Part shown: positions 40,599-51,239 of the stretch, in pieces
Layout: the number at the start of each line of letters is the position of its first letter
Position numbering within the stretch: position 1 is the stretch's first letter
DNA from: Blastococcus sp. CT_GayMR19
GTDB taxonomy: Bacteria > Actinomycetota > Actinomycetes > Mycobacteriales > Geodermatophilaceae
Direction of reading: 5' to 3'
DNA: 64,000 bases
NCBI RefSeq assembly: GCF_004570385.1
Contig: NZ_SPQL01000005.1
Location: 186,001-250,000, forward strand
The notes under the pieces: model-generated
Told to the model about the DNA's origin: nothing
The model's input: only the letters and a program-made list of their open reading frames with translations
The model's database searches: none
Made by a program: the position numbers and the translations under genes

Positions 40599-41300
40599 TC
40601 ACGACGGGTCCGGTGGGGAGAGCACCTGACCCGGCAGCAGCAGGTCGGGGTCCGGGCCGATGACGTCGGCGTTGGCCTGCCACCAGGCCCGGGTCGCGGC
40701 GGCGACCTCGCCGGCCGTCGGCGTCCGGCCCTGCTCCGCGAGCAGCCGGTCGCTGGCGATGTGCCACAGGCACTCCCCGCGGACGACGACGTGCGCGTCC
40801 GTGGCCGAGGCGGCGCCCGGCCAGTCCGGAGCCGGGCCCGCCCCGGCCATGGCGACGGCAGCGGGCCAGTCGGGCGCCGTACCGACGCTCGACGGCGGCG
40901 TCTCCGGGACCGCGGCCGAGGCCGGGGAGGGGGCCGCCAGCGCCGCGGTGCCGAACAGGGGGCCGGCGACACCGAGTCCCAGGCCGAGGGCGAGGGCGGC
41001 GCTCCGGCGGGCGCCTGCCGGGAGGACGACGCGGAGTGCTCCGTGGGCGGCGCCGCCGACTATTCCGGGCAGCGCGGCAGCGGCGGTGAGGGCGAGTCCC
41101 AGCGCGCCCCAGGCCCACACCGCCCACGCCAGCAGGCCCGCCGCGGAGAGGACCAGCGCGTCCGGCCCGGCGGTGTCCGCGGTGCGCTGGGCGGCTGCGA
41201 GCGTGGCGGCCATCGCGGGAATCCCCGGCGTCAGTGACGCGAGGGCGCAGGCGATCAGCGCCATCGCCGTCGCCGTGCCGATGAGTCGACGAATCGACAT
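40599..41300 (-). CDS. Membrane-anchored LysM-domain protein
   Basis: This 233-residue protein has a hydrophobic N-terminus (residues ~8-30), two further hydrophobic stretches (~50-80 and ~98-125) and an Ala/Pro-rich linker. The C-terminal LysM domain (~170-230) has VVVRGECLWHIASDRLL and ends ANADVIGPDPDLLLPGQVL. LysM binds peptidoglycan, so the tail is expected outside the membrane. An AT-rich divergent promoter region with an inverted repeat lies upstream. ATG 41300. Confidence 0.83.
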   Translation of the reverse strand: MSIRRLIGTATAMALIACALASLTPGIPAMAATLAAAQRTADTAGPDALVLSAAGLLAWAVWAWGALGLALTAAAALPGIVGGAAHGALRVVLPAGARRSAALALGLGLGVAGPLFGTAALAAPSPASAAVPETPPSSVGTAPDWPAAVAMAGAGPAPDWPGAASATDAHVVVRGECLWHIASDRLLAEQGRTPTAGEVAAATRAWWQANADVIGPDPDLLLPGQVLSPPDPS

Positions 41301-41970: not shown

Positions 41971-42237
41971 TCAGGCCCGGGCGGTCGGGCTTCCTGCGGT
42001 CGTGTCGGCCTCGGCCGGTGCCGCGGCGGGCTCGTCGGGGACGGCGCCGGCCCGGGCCTCGGCGTACTTCTGCTCGATGAACCGCTCGAGCTCGTCGGTC
42101 TCGACGCGCCACTGGCCGCGGCCGCCGATCTGGATCGCGATCAGCTCCCTGCGCCGCACCAGTGCGTACGCCTGGGACCAGGAGACATTCAGGATCTCGG
42201 CGACGTCGTCGAGGGTCAGGAAGCGGGGCGTGGGCAT
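41971..42237 (-). CDS. Small helix-turn-helix protein (excisionase/BldC-like)
   Basis: This 88-residue protein has a MerR/excisionase-type winged helix-turn-helix: FLTLDDVAEILNVSWSQAYALVRRRELIAIQIGG (read in pieces), then the wing RGQWRVETDELERFI. An Ala/Pro/Glu-rich tail follows. The layout matches the BldC family of small developmental regulators. ATG 42237 is preceded by GGAGGA. It is divergent from the cpaB-like gene and faces the gene at 41401. Inverted repeats on both sides (41339-41367 and 42295-42316) are possible targets. Confidence 0.85.
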   Translation of the reverse strand: MPTPRFLTLDDVAEILNVSWSQAYALVRRRELIAIQIGGRGQWRVETDELERFIEQKYAEARAGAVPDEPAAAPAEADTTAGSPTARA

Positions 42238-42436: not shown

Positions 42437-43195
42437 GTGACCGCCGTCCGCTCCGCGGGCACCCCGACGGTCCCGCCGGAGGTGCTGCCCGGTCCGACGC
42501 CGCGACGGGTCCGCCCGCCCCGGTGGCTGGATCTGCGACTCGTGCTCGGCGTGCTCCTCGTGCTCGGCTCGGTCCTGCTCGGGGCGCGGATCGTCAGCGC
42601 CGCTGACGCGACCGTGCCCGTGTGGGCGGCGGCCGCCGACCTGGCGCCCGGCACCGAGCTGACCGTCGACGACCTGGTCGCCGTCGACGTGCGGCTCGAC
42701 GCCACTGCCCTCTATCTCTCCACCGGCACCCGACCGGAGGGCCGGGTGCTGGCCCGGGCCGTGCGGGCCGGCGAGCTGCTGCCGCGCTCGGTCCTGGAGG
42801 AGCCGGCCGAGCAGGTCCAGTTGGCGCTGCCCGTGCAGGCGGGCTACGTGCCGCCGGGGCTGGGCCGCGGGCAGCTGGTGGACGTGTACGCGGTGGCCGA
42901 CCCGGTGATCGGGGCCACCCCGGTTGCCGACGGTGGCGTGACCCTCGTCGTCGGGCGCGCACCCGTGCAGGCGATCTCCGGCCGGTCCGACGGGGTGCTC
43001 TCGACGCCGACCTCCGCCGTGCAGGTGGTGGTCGCCGTGCCCGCAGGCCGGGCCGCCGACGTCCTGACCGCCATCGGGGGCCGGCCGCTGGTCGTCGTCG
43101 TGCACGACTCGGTGGACACGGGCTCGGGGAGCGAGGGGGTGGACGTTCCGGAGCGCGCCGCCGCCACGTCGGCGCCGGCGGGTCCGACCGGCTGA
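42437..43195 (+). CDS. SAF-domain protein, CpaB/RcpC-like
   Basis: This 252-residue protein has one N-terminal transmembrane helix (~residues 35-55: LVLGVLLVLGSVLLGARIV). A SAF domain follows (~60-125: VPVWAAAADLAPGTELTVDDL, in part, then LARAVRAGELLPRSVL). The C-terminal part (for example GYVPPGLGRGQLVDVYAV) resembles CpaB/RcpC, which assists Flp/Tad pilus secretion. GGAGAA precedes GTG 42437. It is followed by a CpaE-like gene with TGATG overlap, but no pilin, TadA or secretin gene is nearby. Confidence 0.8.
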   Translation: MTAVRSAGTPTVPPEVLPGPTPRRVRPPRWLDLRLVLGVLLVLGSVLLGARIVSAADATVPVWAAAADLAPGTELTVDDLVAVDVRLDATALYLSTGTRPEGRVLARAVRAGELLPRSVLEEPAEQVQLALPVQAGYVPPGLGRGQLVDVYAVADPVIGATPVADGGVTLVVGRAPVQAISGRSDGVLSTPTSAVQVVVAVPAGRAADVLTAIGGRPLVVVVHDSVDTGSGSEGVDVPERAAATSAPAGPTG

Positions 43196-44490
43196 TGGCG
43201 CTCAACGTCTTCACCGCCGTCACCGGCGCCGCCTGGGAGTCCGAGCTCGTCGGCGCCCTGGACCGGGCCGACCACGGGGTCACCGTCGTCCGCCGGTGCG
43301 TCGACGTCTCCGAGCTCCTCGCCGCCGCGGCCACGGGCACGGGGCAGGCAGCCCTGCTCTCTGCCGAGCTGCGCCGTCTCGACGGCGACGCGATCGCCCG
43401 GCTGGATGCCGCCGGGGTGGCCGTCGTCGGCCTCGTCGAGCCGGGTGACGAGCGGGCAGCCGAGCGGTTGCGGCAGCTGGGGGTGCGGCGCGTGCTCCCG
43501 GCCGACGCCGAACCGGAGGCGATCGCGCAGGCTCTCCGGGAGGCGGTGGCGGGCTCGTCGCCGTCCGGCCGGGACGTGGCCGACCCCCGCGCCGCCCTCC
43601 CGGCGCTCGGCGTTCCCGAGGCGCCCGAGGAGCGGCCCGCGGGGCCGGGCAGCGTCGTGGCGGTGTGGGGGCCGACGGGCGCCCCCGGGCGGACGACCGT
43701 CGCCGTCGGGCTCGCGGACGAGGCGGCCCGGCTGGGCATCTCCACGCTCCTGGTGGACGCCGACGTCTACGGGGGTGTCGTCGCGCAGGTGCTCGGCCTG
43801 CTCGACGAGTCGCCGGGCCTGGCGGGAGCGGCGCGCCTCGCCGGTGCGGGGACCCTGGACAGCGCCGCCGTCGTGCGGCTGGCGTGGGCGGTGCGGCCCC
43901 GGCTGCGGGTGCTGACCGGTCTGGCGCGGGCGGACCGCTGGCCGGAGCTGCGGCCGCGCGCCGTGGCGACGGTGCTCGAGGAGGCGCGGCGGCTGGCCCG
44001 CTGCACCGTCGTCGACTGCTCCTTCAGCCTGGAGGACGACGAGGAGCTGTCCTTCGACACCGCGGCGCCGCGGCGGAACGGTGCCACCCTGGCGGTGCTC
44101 GAGGCCGCGGACACCGTGCTGTGCGTGACCGGCGCGGACCCCGTGGCACTGCAGCGCAGCGTGCGGGCGCTCGACGAGTTGCGGGAGGTGCTGCCCGAGG
44201 TTGACCCCGTGGTGGTGGTCAACCAGGTGCGGCGAGGGCCGGTCCCGGGGGACGCGCGGCAGGAGATCGCGGCGGCGCTCGAGCGCTTCGCCGGCCGCGA
44301 GGTCCGCTTCTTCCTCCCGGCCGACCGCGGCGCCACCGATGCCGCGCTGGCCTCGGGGCGCACGCTGGCCGAGGTGGCGCCCGGCTCACCGCTGCGCGTG
44401 GCGCTCCGGTCGCTGGCCGCGGCGGTGGTGGGGGTTCCCGAGCCCGCGGGCAGGCGACGCGGCCTCGGGCGGATCCGCGGGGCCGGCTGA
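43195..44490 (+). CDS. CpaE/TadZ-like ParA-family ATPase
   Basis: This 431-residue protein has an N-terminal receiver-like domain (~1-120) without the usual phospho-acceptor pattern. The ParA/MinD fold follows from ~155. Its P-loop reads GPTGAPGRTT, so the usual lysine is replaced by arginine; LLVDADVYGGV is the Walker A' strand and VVDCSF the Walker B strand. Such proteins position Tad pilus machinery at the pole. It is coupled to the CpaB-like gene, but the rest of a Tad system is missing from the window. ATG 43195. Confidence 0.82.
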   Translation: MALNVFTAVTGAAWESELVGALDRADHGVTVVRRCVDVSELLAAAATGTGQAALLSAELRRLDGDAIARLDAAGVAVVGLVEPGDERAAERLRQLGVRRVLPADAEPEAIAQALREAVAGSSPSGRDVADPRAALPALGVPEAPEERPAGPGSVVAVWGPTGAPGRTTVAVGLADEAARLGISTLLVDADVYGGVVAQVLGLLDESPGLAGAARLAGAGTLDSAAVVRLAWAVRPRLRVLTGLARADRWPELRPRAVATVLEEARRLARCTVVDCSFSLEDDEELSFDTAAPRRNGATLAVLEAADTVLCVTGADPVALQRSVRALDELREVLPEVDPVVVVNQVRRGPVPGDARQEIAAALERFAGREVRFFLPADRGATDAALASGRTLAEVAPGSPLRVALRSLAAAVVGVPEPAGRRRGLGRIRGAG

Positions 44491-46502: not shown

Positions 46503-49500
46503 TCACCGCGAACCCACCGCCACGGGAACCGGTGCCCGGCGACGCGCCACCTGGACGCGCTCCATGCCCACGCCGGTGACCAGCCAGCCGGAGCCTGGCC
46601 GCACGGGCAGGGGCGTCCGGGGCAGCCGGATGGCCAGGAGCTCGGCGTCGCCGGGGCCCGGGCAGAGCAGCAGTCCGCTACGGCCGCGGCGCAGGCTCGC
46701 GATCGGTCCCTGGTAGTGGCCGGACAAGTGGCCCGGCGCGGCGGCCGCCAGCAGCGCGATCCCGCCGCGCGAACCCAGCGCCGGGAGCCGGCCGAGCGCG
46801 GGGAACTCGGCCGGTGTCCCCACGTCGTCGGCGACCACGACGCCCGGGCGGCCGTCCAGCTCCGCGACCCAGGCGGCCATCCCGGTCCCGTCGCCCGGGT
46901 CCAGCCAGACGAGGTCGGCCTCCACGGGTGTTCCCGCGGGCGCCGCTCCCAGGCGCAGCACCGCCACCCCCACGGCCTGGAGGTGCGCGCTGAACGCGTC
47001 GAGCGCGGTGGAGCGGCCGCTGCCCGGTGGGCCCGTGACGAGGAGCCCGCCGGTCCGCAGGAGGTCCACCTCCAGCACGTCGCCCGTGTCGCCTCCCGGG
47101 CCGATCGGCAGCGGGAGCGACCCGGCGGTGCCCGGCGCCGGCAGGACCCCGGACCGGAGGTCGTGCGGAACGTCGAGCAGCGGGTCGGACGGGAGGTCGG
47201 CGATGCGCAGGGGGAGGGGGAACCACTGGTCGGCGGCCCGGGGTTCCGGCGGACGCGGGAGGGCGAGCTGGCACTCCAGCGCCTCCTCTCCGAGCAGCGC
47301 CCGGCCCGGAGGCCGGTGGCCCGGTACGGCCCGGGCGGGCACGCCGGCGACTGCGTAGTCGGCGCGGTCGGGCAGCGGCAGGACGAGGCGCCGGCCGGCG
47401 ACGGCGGCGAGCCGTCCGCCCGGCACCGCCCGGTCGGCCGTGAGGATGCAGGTCAGGCCCACGGCGGCGCCGTCGCGCGCGAGCCGGAGGAGGTGCGCCG
47501 AACCGCGGCCGGGGTCCGCGTCGTCCAGGACCGTGCAGATCGACTCCGCCCCGTCGACGAGGAGCAGGATCAGCGGCCAGCCGGCGCCGGGTGTCGCTGC
47601 GGCGCGGCGGGCAGCCACCTCCTGGGCGAGGCGGTCGACCAGTCGGACGGCCCGGAGGACGTCCTCGCCGCCGACGGTGGTGCCGGTGTGCGGCAGGGCG
47701 GCCGCCTCGGTCCCGAGCGCGCCCGCGCCGGCTTCGAGCACGTGCACGTGGAGGTCCGCCGGTCCCAGCCGGCGCACGCTCTCACTCAGCACGCTGCGCA
47801 GCAGGGTGGTCCGGCCGCTGCGGGGGCCGCCCACCGCCAGCCACGTGCCGCCGTCGGCGAGGTCGAGCTCGAGTGGCTCCTGGGTCTGGCCGTCCGGTCG
47901 GTCGACCAGGCCGATCCGCAGGCGGGTGCTCCTCCGCGCACCGCGAGGACTCGCGTCGTCCACGTCCGAGGCGCCGGGGTTCCGGTCGGCCGGTCCGTCC
48001 AGGCTCTCGGCCGGGATGCGCTCGGCCAACGGGGGCCGCCACGGCCGGTGCGGCGTCGGCACGCCGTCGGTCCCGGTCCGTCGGGCCACCGCCCGGCACA
48101 GGAGCGCCAGGTCCGTCTCCTGCCCCGAGGCGGCCGGATCGGGCGGCGCCTCGGCACGGTACGGCCAGGCCCACCGCCGGATCTCCGGGCCCGGGCCCGG
48201 GTCGGGGACGCGGGAGGCGGAGGACGCCACCCGGGCGACCTGCAGCGCGACGGGGGCACCGCTGCCGACCCGGAGGTAGGCGCGACCGGGCAGATCGACG
48301 GGCAGGTGTGCGGCGTCCGTCGTGCCCAGCACGTCGCGCGAGTCGGTCTCGTCCGTGGTCCGCAGGCAGATGCGCAGGGTGCAGTTGGCGCGGATCTCGG
48401 GTGAGACCACTCCGCCCGGCCGCTGCGTCGCCAGCACGAGGTGCACCCCCAGCGAGCGCCCCCGCTGGGCAATGGACACCAGCCCCGGGACGAACGACGG
48501 CAGTTCGTCGGCCAGGGTGGCGAACTCGTCGACCACGATGACCAGCCGAGCGAGGTCGACCTCGTCCGGGAGGGCCGCGATGTCCGAGACCTGGTGGGTC
48601 GCGAGGATCGCCTCCCGGCGGGTCAGCTCGGCGCCGAGGGACCGCAGGGCGCGGGCGGTCGTCTGGCCGTCGAGGTCCGTCACCAGCCCGACGGTGTGGG
48701 GCAGCGCGGCTGCCTCGGCGAAGGCCGCGCCACCCTTGTAGTCGACGAGCAGGAACGAGCACCGGTCGGGGGGATGGTTCAGCGCGAGCCCGGCGATCAG
48801 GGTCTGCAGCAGCTCCGACTTCCCCGAGCCGGTGGTCCCGGCGACGAGGGCGTGCGGGCCCTGCCGGCAGAGATCGATCTCGACGGGGCCCTCCGCCGTG
48901 CGCCCCAGTGTGGCCACGAGACGATCTCGCGATCGCGACCAGGAACCCGTCGCCGCGCCGTCCTCGCACAGGCGCAGACCTGCGACGGGCAGGTCCAGCA
49001 GCCGGACGCGACGAGGCAGGCTCTTGTCCGAGGTCACGGGGCTGAGCGCGGCAAGGTCGCGGGCGAACTGTGCGGCCACGGAACGAGGCAGACGATCGAC
49101 CACGATCGAGCTCTGGTCGGCGACGGCCTGCCGGCTGAGGACGCCCACGTCCCCGGTCTCACCGGACAGCCGCAGCGCCGCATCGACGGTCACCGGCAGG
49201 TCGGCCACCGAGTCCGCCACCGCCAGCGTCAGGATCCCGGCGTCGACGGCTCCGCGGAGCGCCGCGGCGAGCCGGGCGTCCAGCGGACGGTCCACCACCA
49301 CGACGAGCCACCCGAGCGGAGTTGCGTGCCGGCCCGACGGACCGGCGGCCGCGCGGCGCCGGGCGGTGATGCCGGTCAGCCACGCATGCAGCGCCTCGTC
49401 CTCCTGCTGGGCCTCCGTGCCGCTCGCGCCGGTGTGGCGGACGTGGACGGCGCCCGTGTCGAGGTGCGGCAGCCACCGGGCCCACTCCCAGTCCCGGAGG

Positions 49501-50795
49501 CGGTCGGTGTCGGTCAGCAGGAGGAGGTCGACCTCGCCCGGCGGATGCAGCGCGGTGAGCTGCGCGAGGACGCCGTGCAGCACTCCGACCGTCCGTTCGC
49601 GCGGCCCGATGACGGCCAGCCCACCGGCGGCGCGGAGGTCCACCACTGCCGGGACGTGCGGCGCGCTCTCGGGACGACGTGCGCCGTCGGGCTCGATCCG
49701 GGTGACGCCGATCGTCCCGGGACCGGTCCCGACCCGGATGGTCAGCGCGTCGGCGTCCCCGCGGCTCCGGCTCCAGAGCAGGGAGGAACGCCGCCGTGCG
49801 GCGCCGGCCAGCGTGGCCAGGTCGGGGTGAGCGACGTCCGCGGCGCGTACGCATGAGCGGACCGCGTCGGCCAGGCGGTTCTGCGCGTCGAGCAGCTCGA
49901 GGGCGTGGGCGGCCGCGTCCTTCCGTCCGCTCTGCCGGCCCGACCATCGGTCGGACAGCCACGTGCCCAGCGCGACGACGGGACTCAGCAGGGCGAAGAA
50001 CAGGAACGTCGGCGTGTGCAGGAGCCAGGCCATGAGCACGCCCGCGACCGCCGGAAGGGCGACCGCCACCCAGGCCAGCCGCCGGCGGGGCGGTGGCTCC
50101 GGGGGGCGCGGGAACGTCACCTCCACCTCGGGCCTCGGGGTGGACATGCGCCGGGCCGGGCGCAGCCGCACCCGCCCCCCGGCCGCCGGCGTGAGTGCGG
50201 CGCCCGCCCCGCCCGGGCCGGCGACGCTGACGGCACTGGCGCCGAACCGCAGGACGGCGCCGGCGGGCCAGCTCACCGGTCGCTCGTCCAGGTCCCGATC
50301 GTCCAGACGGCTGCCGTTCGTCGACGACAGGTCGGCGACCGTGATCTCGCCTCCACCGACATGGACCTCGACATGACGGCGGGAGACGTCCGGGTCGTCG
50401 AGCCGGATGGTGGCCTCGCCTCCCCGGCCGAGCACGTGCCGGCCCTGACCCAGCGCGAGGGTCCGGCCGGCGTCGGGCCCGCCCACGACGTGCAACGAGA
50501 GTGCACTGGCACCGCGGCCCGCCACGACGCGCGGCACGGGCCGTCCCAGCCCCAGCACCGCCCCGTGTGCGAGCTCGGCCGCCGTGAGCGGAACGTCGTC
50601 ATCGAGCCGGGTCGACCCGGCCCAGAGCCCGGGGATCTCGCTGCCGAGCTCCCGCCCGAGGCAGGGCAGCACGGTGCCGAGGGTCGCGTCCTCCGCGGCC
50701 GTCACCTCCAGGTCGACCGCGCCGCCGACCACGACGACGGTCCAGCGTCGGGTGGAGCGCGCTGCCGTCGGCTCGGACGTCGAGAGTCGGATCAC
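46503..50795 (-). CDS. FHA-domain FtsK/SpoIIIE ATPase, EccC/EssC-like type VII secretion motor
   Basis: This 1430-residue protein starts with a ubiquitin-like/FHA region (FHA at ~98-193, with VLGRGG, SRRHVEV and STNGS). Two transmembrane helices follow (~240-258 and 263-281). Then come three FtsK/SpoIIIE-type ATPase domains. Domain 1 has an intact P-loop AGTTGSGKSELLQT near 655 and Walker B VIVVDEFATLADE. Domains 2 (~990, GPRSGRTT) and 3 (~1255, GPPGSGRST) have arginine for the P-loop lysine. The plan matches EssC (FHA plus ATPases) more than mycobacterial EccC. GTG 50795 is divergent from a WXG100-like gene, its likely substrate. No EccB, EccD, EccE or mycosin gene is nearby. Confidence 0.88.
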   Translation of the reverse strand: MIRLSTSEPTAARSTRRWTVVVVGGAVDLEVTAAEDATLGTVLPCLGRELGSEIPGLWAGSTRLDDDVPLTAAELAHGAVLGLGRPVPRVVAGRGASALSLHVVGGPDAGRTLALGQGRHVLGRGGEATIRLDDPDVSRRHVEVHVGGGEITVADLSSTNGSRLDDRDLDERPVSWPAGAVLRFGASAVSVAGPGGAGAALTPAAGGRVRLRPARRMSTPRPEVEVTFPRPPEPPPRRRLAWVAVALPAVAGVLMAWLLHTPTFLFFALLSPVVALGTWLSDRWSGRQSGRKDAAAHALELLDAQNRLADAVRSCVRAADVAHPDLATLAGAARRRSSLLWSRSRGDADALTIRVGTGPGTIGVTRIEPDGARRPESAPHVPAVVDLRAAGGLAVIGPRERTVGVLHGVLAQLTALHPPGEVDLLLLTDTDRLRDWEWARWLPHLDTGAVHVRHTGASGTEAQQEDEALHAWLTGITARRRAAAGPSGRHATPLGWLVVVVDRPLDARLAAALRGAVDAGILTLAVADSVADLPVTVDAALRLSGETGDVGVLSRQAVADQSSIVVDRLPRSVAAQFARDLAALSPVTSDKSLPRRVRLLDLPVAGLRLCEDGAATGSWSRSRDRLVATLGRTAEGPVEIDLCRQGPHALVAGTTGSGKSELLQTLIAGLALNHPPDRCSFLLVDYKGGAAFAEAAALPHTVGLVTDLDGQTTARALRSLGAELTRREAILATHQVSDIAALPDEVDLARLVIVVDEFATLADELPSFVPGLVSIAQRGRSLGVHLVLATQRPGGVVSPEIRANCTLRICLRTTDETDSRDVLGTTDAAHLPVDLPGRAYLRVGSGAPVALQVARVASSASRVPDPGPGPEIRRWAWPYRAEAPPDPAASGQETDLALLCRAVARRTGTDGVPTPHRPWRPPLAERIPAESLDGPADRNPGASDVDDASPRGARRSTRLRIGLVDRPDGQTQEPLELDLADGGTWLAVGGPRSGRTTLLRSVLSESVRRLGPADLHVHVLEAGAGALGTEAAALPHTGTTVGGEDVLRAVRLVDRLAQEVAARRAAATPGAGWPLILLLVDGAESICTVLDDADPGRGSAHLLRLARDGAAVGLTCILTADRAVPGGRLAAVAGRRLVLPLPDRADYAVAGVPARAVPGHRPPGRALLGEEALECQLALPRPPEPRAADQWFPLPLRIADLPSDPLLDVPHDLRSGVLPAPGTAGSLPLPIGPGGDTGDVLEVDLLRTGGLLVTGPPGSGRSTALDAFSAHLQAVGVAVLRLGAAPAGTPVEADLVWLDPGDGTGMAAWVAELDGRPGVVVADDVGTPAEFPALGRLPALGSRGGIALLAAAAPGHLSGHYQGPIASLRRGRSGLLLCPGPGDAELLAIRLPRTPLPVRPGSGWLVTGVGMERVQVARRRAPVPVAVGSR

Positions 50796-50844
50796 CGGGC
50801 GATCCTGACCGCTGCCCCGGCAGCGCGGGACCCGAGGACGCCGA

Positions 50845-50872
50845 CCTGTGGACAACCACCGGCCTGTGGACA
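50845..50872. promoter_or_regulatory. Two direct CCTGTGGACA repeats, DnaA-box-like
   Basis: CCTGTGGACA occurs at 50845-50854 and 50863-50872 in the 150-bp gap between the divergent FtsK-like and WXG100 genes. TGTGGACAA within the first is the exact complement of the actinobacterial DnaA box TTGTCCACA; the second differs by one base. Regulation by DnaA or another factor is inferred. Confidence 0.45.
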
Positions 50873-50945
50873 GCGCGGACGGCGCAGCGGCCCGCCGCCC
50901 TACCGTTCGCCCCGACCGGGAGGGACCCGGATCGGAGGAGGACCC

Positions 50946-51239
50946 GTGAAGGTCGACATCGCCACCCTGCAGTCCATGGCCGGCCAGTGCCGGTCGGAGG
51001 CGGCCGACACCGCCGGAAGGCACGCCACCCTGTCGAGCAGCATCAACACGTCGGTGCTCGACGGGTGGACCGACAGCCAGGCCGCCGTCCAGTTCAGCGA
51101 GCTCTACGAGCAGTGGCGGATGTCTGCCCAGGGGGTCAGCGACGCCCTGACCGGCATGGGTTCGCTGCTCACGAGCGTGGCCGGGTCCTACCAGCAGCAC
51201 GAGGCCGACATGGCGGCCCGCATCGGCGCGCTGATCTGA
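50946..51239 (+). CDS. WXG100-family (ESAT-6-like) protein
   Basis: This 97-residue helical hairpin protein has helix 1 (VDIATLQSMAGQCRSEAAD) and a turn at GWTDSQAA where classical members have W-x-G. Helix 2 (FSELYEQWRMSAQGVSDAL) follows. A C-terminal SYQQHEADM gives a YxxxE motif, the type VII secretion signal. GTG 50946 is preceded by GGAGGAGG. It is divergent from the EccC/EssC-like gene. A single WXG100 gene suggests a homodimer. A strong terminator follows. Confidence 0.87.
   Translation: MKVDIATLQSMAGQCRSEAADTAGRHATLSSSINTSVLDGWTDSQAAVQFSELYEQWRMSAQGVSDALTGMGSLLTSVAGSYQQHEADMAARIGALI

Follow-up and report, generated by a model that had tools for sequence, protein, structure and literature searches.

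Do two divergent genes, one for an EssC/EccC-like ATPase and one for a WXG100 protein, make up a minimal type VII secretion system (T7SS) of their own, or do they serve another machine? The question is raised by a 64,000-nucleotide stretch of the genome of Blastococcus sp. CT_GayMR19 (contig NZ_SPQL01000005.1, positions 186,001 to 250,000), hereafter the window, in which such a pair is separated by 150 nt (Table 1). An earlier note, made from the letters of the window, had taken the pair for a minimal secretion unit, which might be reduced or might share components encoded elsewhere. Whole-genome profile searches agree with a T7SS-like core of reduced make-up that lacks the canonical ESX/Ess partners searched; a free-standing secretion unit is, however, not required, given two features which that note missed, a ubiquitin-like domain (Ubl) fused to the ATPase and a setting of Tad pilus and competence genes, on account of which the pair may serve a pilus instead. 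Our preferred reading, whose chances we put at about even, is that the pair represents the two-gene Geodermatophilaceae form of an unclassified actinobacterial Tad-associated T7SS-like core, the client of which would most likely be a Tad (Flp) pilus, probably in DNA uptake. New are the Ubl fused into the ATPase, the Tad linkage of the clade, and the presence near the window pair of a trio of genes encoding HTH_17, SAF-domain, and CpaE-like proteins.

An EssC/EccC-like ATPase with a predicted fused ubiquitin-like domain

The 1430-residue ATPase with FHA domain and two membrane helices described in the earlier note was recovered by Pfam, both for FHA (43 bits, cut-off 20.7) and for FtsK_SpoIIIE (144 bits over three stretches), and by prediction of the helices. 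Its GTG start is backed by 19 of 19 relatives, in which a GTG or ATG lies 10–17 residues ahead of the same Trp (17 in the window), and the only other candidate listed between the two genes is an in-frame TTG at 50855. Against the NCBIfam equivalogs of EssC (TIGR03928) and EccC (TIGR03924), the protein scored 422 and 319 bits, below the respective curated cut-offs of 778 and 509, versus 64 bits for the FtsK model. The nearest solved structures were the 1147-residue FtsK/SpoIIIE chain 4nh0, which we take to be Thermomonospora curvata EccC, Bacillus subtilis YukB, and mycobacterial EccC5. By Pfam, NCBIfam, and these structural relatives, the window ATPase is thus assigned to the EssC/EccC branch of the FtsK/SpoIIIE family. 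A full Walker A motif is kept only in the first of its three ATPase modules, and by analogy with EccC the third is expected to be the WXG100-binding module. Matches to anti-phage defence profiles in PADLOC (best Mad8, 133 bits; SspH, 101 bits; HerA) look like common FtsK/HerA-type ATPase sequence, and a role in defence was set aside.

AlphaFold modelled residues 1–298, using 66 relatives, as a beta-beta-alpha-beta-beta domain followed by FHA and two helices, with a predicted local distance difference test score (pLDDT) of 89. Searches with this complete N-terminal model, both in Foldseek and in VIA-align, returned FHA proteins only among the matches listed, so the first domain was folded and searched by itself (residues 1–90; pLDDT 87). 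The 50 Foldseek matches then listed were, judged by their titles, ubiquitin-like proteins, among them the ESX-3 core chains 6sgw_B (E 1.6e-4), 6sgz_E, 6umm_B, and 6sgx_B, all four presumably EccD, as well as the ubiquitin-like domain of EccD5 (7b7j; E 7.7e-4). VIA-align Z scores against ubiquitin-like proteins reached 9.2 (root-mean-square deviation 2.2, 75 aligned), a modest value on a scale where, according to the tool, 7–8 is typical without a clear match, and by title all VIA-align matches listed belonged to one fold. No Pfam YukD match was present on the ATPase among the 25 of 29 families listed. Judged from its modelled fold, the ATPase has a predicted beta-grasp domain of YukD/EccD type at its N terminus. 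To our knowledge, a Ubl-fused motor together with a WXG100 protein would be the simplest T7SS layout. Across the T7SS types covered by the available part of a recent survey (PMC11217815), the ubiquitin-like part is a separate protein, is contained within EccD in T7SSa, and is described as missing from T7SSd; with the Ubl built into the ATPase, one missing T7SS partner would be accounted for.

The divergent WXG100-like protein, likewise described in the earlier note together with its C-terminal YxxxE, exceeded the cut-offs of Pfam PF06013 (50.6 bits versus 27.3) and, barely, of NCBIfam TIGR03930 (45.9 bits versus 44.85). Its YxxxE reads Y82-Q-Q-H-E86, and the canonical central W-x-G is replaced by W-T-D, so that assignment to the WXG100 family is based on the profiles, with a length of about 100 residues also fitting. 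No match to a solved structure was found at E 1. W[TS]D and YQQHE were kept across the rows of loci L009–L041 described below, and not in a deeper Geodermatophilaceae metagenome-assembled genome (MAG; L045). The ratio of nonsynonymous to synonymous substitution rates was 0.07–0.32 against eight of nine relatives tried and 0.54 against Klenkia, and the gene is under purifying selection.

Conservation of the pair and missing partners

The distribution of the pair was followed across 21 genomes, namely 13 of the same genus and 8 others of the same order. WXG100 matches were obtained in all 21, with exactly one (E 0.01) in 10 of the 13 genus genomes. Co-occurrence of the two genes, a check proposed in the earlier note, proved complete in the genus, the pair being divergent and adjacent in 13/13 genomes (one across a contig break). 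An EssC-like ATPase below the EccC cut-off shared a contig with the WXG100 gene in every genus genome except G008, in which the ATPase gene is cut by a contig end and both parts were found; in G010, the ATPase match is spread over two frames. Adjacency throughout the genus, along with purifying selection on the WXG100 gene, indicates that the pairing is not due to chance.

Partners of known systems, which the earlier note had found lacking in the flanking genes, were lacking at the level of the genome and the genus as well. Over curated cut-offs, none of the 13 genus genomes had EccB, EccD/YukD, EccCa, or mycosin (only sub-cut-off generic subtilases in the last case), versus 5, 6, 6, and 3, respectively, of the 8 other genomes. 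YukC/EssB had no match at E 0.1 in any of the 21. As controls, T7SSa-bearing genomes of the same order matched ESX parts and B. subtilis matched both YukD and YukC. Because EccB, EccD/YukD, and mycosin were not found over cut-off and EssB was unmatched, the pair is, by these profile searches, neither T7SSa nor T7SSb as far as the partners searched go, which did not include EccE, EsaA, or EssA. A complete ESX system elsewhere in the genome, with an EccC of its own, was ruled out by the same searches; since the pair is also kept in all 13 genomes, the refuting case named in the earlier note does not hold.

A few weaker signals were set aside. YukD matches below cut-off occurred in 11 of the 12 other genus genomes; the one examined (G002, L143) lies far from the pair in a frame that reads by eye as pyrroline-5-carboxylate reductase, and was taken as chance. 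The window genome holds two further weak WXG-like matches, neither over cut-off, on contigs C1 and C14. On C1, at about 113.6 kb, a 107-residue open reading frame (ORF) without Pfam match (L003:1441-1764, in the window genome G000) has a faint WXG100 likeness (E 0.29). It adjoins a gene that looks by eye like one for a proton pyrophosphatase, and a further TadA-like gene (C1:122072) is some 8 kb away. One genus member, G011, has a second EssC-like gene and WXG100 (C6:837913-845951 and C6:854911) about 17 kb from TadA.

Relatives of the ATPase and their association with Tad genes

Relatives of the ATPase were taken as the best 80 of at least 563 loci, a selection and not a census. They comprised 33 loci at the Geodermatophilaceae end (L009–L041, one labelled Frankiales) and 47 distant ones from several actinobacterial orders (L042–L088). 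Neighbouring genes were counted by profile; a first-pass clustering had mixed antisense frames. WXG100 adjoined the ATPase in 31 of the 33 Geodermatophilaceae-end loci, the remaining two being cut contigs, and 32 of the 47 distant loci had it at some position. The phosphothreonine motif of FHA (G-R, S-x-x-H, N-G) was retained in 31–32 of the 33, and its single residues in only 12–15 of the 47, except for the first Gly (40/47). Seventy ATPase cores were placed in a tree, in which the six rows of T7SSa EccC stood apart from the 64 EssC-like ones with a Shimodaira-Hasegawa-like approximate likelihood ratio test (SH-aLRT) value of 100; this was a quick search with SH-aLRT only, for which the program noted long branches. 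The rows of L047 and G020 are identical and so probably represent one organism.

Genes of Tad/Flp type (at least one of the profiles TadA, B, C, E, Flp, and CpaE) were detected in the fetched flanks of 18 of the 47 distant loci, including TadA in 14. Considering only the 27 distant loci with at least 5 kb on both sides, Tad genes were present in 13 and absent in 14. Fifteen of the 18 Tad-bearing loci have these genes upstream of the ATPase and divergent from it. The nearest is only 67–306 nt away (to the open-frame edge) in L044, L047, L064, L065, L067, L070, L078, and L088, and the distance is several kb in L052, L063, and L069. Two panel genomes (G018 and G020) encode SAF-CpaE-TadA-TadB-TadC-Flp-TadE beside the ATPase. 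When representative Tad genes were checked against curated models, T2SSE, one T2SSF, and TadE passed Pfam cut-offs, and the second T2SSF and Flp did not; the TadA-family model TIGR03819 gave 223–254 bits versus a cut-off of 373, and the CpaE and SAF stretches of L061 had no Pfam match.

As a control for proximity, we used the 72 T2SSE matches of the 21 genomes, keeping in mind that some contigs were too short to tell. A T2SSE match lay within 20 kb of 0/13 T7SSa EccC genes and 0/17 FtsK genes, versus 3/9 EssC-like genes other than the first copies in the genus (one of them at 17 kb). On the tree, a strict Tad label required 3 changes over 43 scored rows (200 shuffles: mean 14.5, minimum 10), and a looser one that accepted SAF/CpaE of the window type required 2 over 46 rows (mean 12.3, minimum 9), with 27 of the 70 rows (strict; short flanks or not scored) and 24 (loose) left out of these counts.

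In the window, the HTH_17/SAF/CpaE trio lies 2 kb from the end of the ATPase, and it is present in 29 of the 33 Geodermatophilaceae-end loci. Two of its members scored below NCBIfam cut-offs, the SAF-domain protein for CpaB (25.6 bits versus 71) and the CpaE-like protein for CpaE_hom_Actino (55 bits versus 154). Both arrangements are united in a single MAG locus (L073), whose EssC-like gene is flanked on one side by TadA-B-C and on the other by DUF6912, WS/DGAT, CpaE, SAF, and HTH_17; no WXG100 was found in this locus. Between its TadA and EssC-like genes, L073 also has a 256-residue ORF without Pfam match (L073:6851-7621). On a TadA tree, the genus copies group (99) with those of L073, of the Intrasporangiaceae loci where TadA and an EssC-like gene are neighbours, and of three of the 8 other genomes of the order, a grouping that speaks for the Tad link; most remaining EssC-linked TadA form a second clade.

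A possible function for this association comes from Micrococcus luteus, in which natural transformation and Flp pili need two tad clusters, according to the accessible part of the report (PMC4322843). As described in the portion at hand of Torasso Kasem et al. 2021 (PMC8467076), Mlut_07490 is a two-helix membrane ATPase of the FtsK/SpoIIIE family whose gene adjoins, and is divergent from, the TadA of tad-1. The substitution G327E in this protein makes transformation drop by a factor of 1000 or more but does not on its own turn off the com promoter. The same portion reports that the SAF gene Mlut_14650 is also required, its loss cutting transformation 1000-fold or more, and that HTH_17/SAF/CpaE-like gene arrangements occur in Geodermatophilus too. 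The window ATPase may be an ortholog of Mlut_07490.

Table 1. Coordinates of the pair, its domains and motifs, and neighbouring genes in the window
Feature	Position	Strand	Basis or conservation
EssC/EccC-like FtsK/SpoIIIE ATPase, 1430 aa (Ubl, FHA, two membrane helices, ATPases 1–3)	46503..50795	-	Start GTG 50795
Ubiquitin-like (beta-grasp) domain, N-terminal, residues 13–83, predicted	50547..50759	-	AlphaFold (AF2), Foldseek, VIA-align
FHA domain, residues 97–196, G-R / S-x-x-H / N-G phosphothreonine motif	50208..50507	-	Pfam and model
Two predicted membrane helices, residues 242–259 and 263–297	49905..50072	-	Structure prediction
ATPase 1, Walker A GTTGSGKS	48816..48839	-	Gly-Lys-Ser end invariant in 80/80 relatives
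ATPase 2, degenerate Walker A GGPRSGRT (Lys to Arg)	47808..47831	-	Arg in 33/33 Geodermatophilaceae-end and 46/47 distant loci
ATPase 3, degenerate Walker A GPPGSGRS	47010..47033	-	Arg in 31/31 Geodermatophilaceae-end (two gaps) and 41/47 distant loci
WXG100 protein, 97 aa, W41-T-D turn, YQQHE export-type motif (51189-51203)	50946..51239	+	Pfam, NCBIfam
HTH_17 excisionase-like regulator, resembles Mlut_14660 in kind and place	41971..42237	-	PMC8467076
SAF-domain (RcpC/CpaB-like) protein, resembles Mlut_14650 in kind and place	42437..43195	+	Pfam SAF, 35.6 bits versus 21
CpaE/TadZ-like ATPase, resembles Mlut_14640 in kind and place	~43195..44490 (start not fixed)	+	Profile
LysM-like protein, judged by eye and without Pfam match	40599..41300	-	Syntenic in 29/33 Geodermatophilaceae-end loci and L073

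The tadA gene of the genus looks like a recurrent integration site. In the window genome, it is interrupted in the Walker A stretch (contig C26:261436-272318; L140, L179) by an insert of about 9.6 kb, whose flanks encode residues 7–219 and 212–413. The insert carries a large serine recombinase at the junction (Pfam Resolvase, 103 bits; Recombinase, 40 bits) and a phage-capsid-family protein (111 bits). In G008 (C34:137902-171981), tadA is cut twice, leaving about 25 kb and 8 kb between its parts, and in G005 its pieces are on two contigs (C93 and C158); the gene is whole in six other genus loci and cut by a contig end in one. Competence genes elsewhere serve as integration sites.

Proposed role and alternative explanations

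We propose the following scheme. The ATPase would form a hexamer with two helices per subunit, in which only ATPase 1 would hydrolyze ATP and the degenerate ATPases 2 and 3 would act as docking modules. A WXG100 dimer would dock through its C-terminal YxxxE helix, open the motor, and be moved out, while the fused Ubl would take over the role of EsaB/EccD and the FHA domain would read a phosphothreonine signal. This T7SS-like core would then serve a Tad pilus, probably in DNA uptake. The genes, their conservation, the lack of the partners searched, and the genomic tie of the clade to Tad genes are observed, and the domains are predicted. Secretion and service to the pilus are both steps that we infer; we rank the latter above any single rival, and consider it equally probable to hold or to fail.

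Several observations weigh against this link between the pair and the pilus. Within the genus, none of the 13 first copies of the EssC-like gene had a T2SSE match inside 20 kb, and the TadABC-Flp-TadE genes are located apart from the pair; the stretches read (L140, L142, L153–L155, L157, and L158; L156 is cut) held neither SAF nor CpaE. G009 and G012 have one more Tad cluster, which does include SAF and CpaE genes of its own. The window genome keeps the pair whole, whereas a mobile element interrupts its related tadA, the one in the TadABC-Flp locus. No WXG100 was found by profile in 6 of the 13 full-flank Tad-linked distant loci (L044, L047, L064, L067, L070, and L073), so pair and pilus are not inseparable. 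The 14 full-flank loci without Tad genes comprise 3 of Streptomycetaceae, 6 of Microbacteriaceae, 4 of Promicromonosporaceae, and one Streptosporangiales MAG, and in some of them (L054 and the like) the ATPase occurs together with WXG and cargo-like genes. Mlut_07490, in turn, was matched with the EssC-like genes of Intrasporangiaceae (L044 and L067) by position and topology rather than by sequence. ComEC, found in 13/13 genus genomes, was also in all 21 of the panel, so that its presence lends little support.

The Tad-less L054-type loci possibly represent another undescribed T7SS type. In L054 (679-12209) and similar loci of Promicromonosporaceae and Microbacteriaceae, genes for WXG100, a small protein, and a longer cargo-like protein lie just upstream of the ATPase, along with two proteins with signal-like N-termini, one of which has an F5/8 type C domain.

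Such loci, the conservation of the pair by itself throughout the genus, its retained YxxxE, and the location of genus TadABC genes elsewhere would all suit a free-standing minimal type VII exporter, dedicated to the WXG100 protein or to an unlinked cargo, for which the Tad neighbourhood would be an inherited accident. We consider this rather unlikely, as the Tad linkage is found repeatedly, in several orders and with two TadA lineages, was not seen for T7SSa EccC or FtsK, and no cargo gene was seen next to the pair in the window. On general grounds, since T7SSa and T7SSb as known depend on partners such as EccB, EccD, EccE, and mycosin or EssB, the pair might be a reduced ESX or Ess system that borrows them from another locus. 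As a whole this is very improbable, and judged by profile searches it is refuted for the partners searched: the 13 genus genomes lack EccB, EccD/YukD, and mycosin over cut-off and any EssB match (EccE, EsaA, and EssA were not searched), and sharing of components with an ESX system encoded elsewhere, as the earlier note had considered, is not supported, with no EccC over cut-off in 13/13.

The ATPase might also move DNA itself in Tad-dependent uptake, as an FtsK-family motor for which WXG100 would be a regulator rather than a passenger. Results from M. luteus favour this, in that the FtsK/SpoIIIE gene by tad-1 is needed for transformation, its mutation alone leaves the com promoter on, and the authors name Mlut_07490 a DNA translocase in the portion at hand (PMC8467076). 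The profile scores, far higher for EssC and EccC than for FtsK, the T7SS ATPases as best solved relatives, and the T7SS-type arrangement of three ATPases, the second and third of them degenerate, all make a DNA motor improbable. Service of a T7SS-like core to a Tad pilus, the preferred reading, bears on a question that, in the available part of the survey (PMC11217815), was left open, namely whether the neighbourhood of Tad and T7SS genes in Bacillota is a coincidence. This neighbourhood is now seen in a second phylum, in several orders, and with two TadA lineages, and not for T7SSa EccC. We tentatively raise the wider possibility, itself doubtful, that a T7SS core, made up of a Ubl-FHA-EssC ATPase and, in members that have it, WXG100, was recruited as a working part of a DNA-uptake Tad pilus in Actinobacteria, that Mlut_07490 is one such core, and that the Bacillota neighbourhoods reflect the same functional link instead of coincidence. 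Since M. luteus has transformation phenotypes in what look like matching genes, the question is testable with ready strains. The pair would add an actinobacterial T7SS type with a ubiquitin-like partner fused to the motor, and would help define the irreducible T7SS engine.

Comparison with known systems

No earlier description of an actinobacterial link between a Ubl-FHA-EssC ATPase, WXG100, and Tad was found among the entries listed in searches of the open-licence PMC literature, and the terms "WXG" and "type VII" do not occur in the M. luteus paper (PMC8467076). In the portion of that paper at hand, M. luteus shares with the window a two-helix FtsK/SpoIIIE protein, Mlut_07490, there divergent from TadA, and an HTH_17/SAF/CpaE trio in cluster 13 (Mlut_14640, Mlut_14650, and Mlut_14660), but has them at two separate loci. 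Like T7SSb EssC and T7SSa EccC, the window ATPase combines two membrane helices with three ATPase modules, preceded by FHA as in EssC, but it falls under both cut-offs, has a predicted fused Ubl, and has Arg in place of the Walker Lys in ATPases 2 and 3; the partners searched for in T7SSa and T7SSb were not found for the window pair.

Among the types described in the available part of the survey by Garrett, Higginson and Palmer 2024 (PMC11217815), T7SSd of Olsenella and Bifidobacterium is likewise from Actinomycetota, has an ATPase FHA with the phosphothreonine motif, and has no separate ubiquitin-like gene. It differs in having the kinase TsdD, TsdH, and a large TsdI, and is set apart here by this description and not by ATPase sequence; no kinase was found among ten neighbouring genes scanned with Pfam, and TsdH and TsdI were not searched by sequence. 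T7SSg and T7SSh of Bacillota resemble the window system in their few components, one or two WXG100 proteins, EssC-type ATPase, and neighbouring Tad genes, an adjacency found in part of the clade studied here. They are, however, described as lacking FHA and having a separate ubiquitin-like protein, TsxB, whereas the actinobacterial window system has FHA, a predicted fused Ubl, and no separate Ubl over cut-off.

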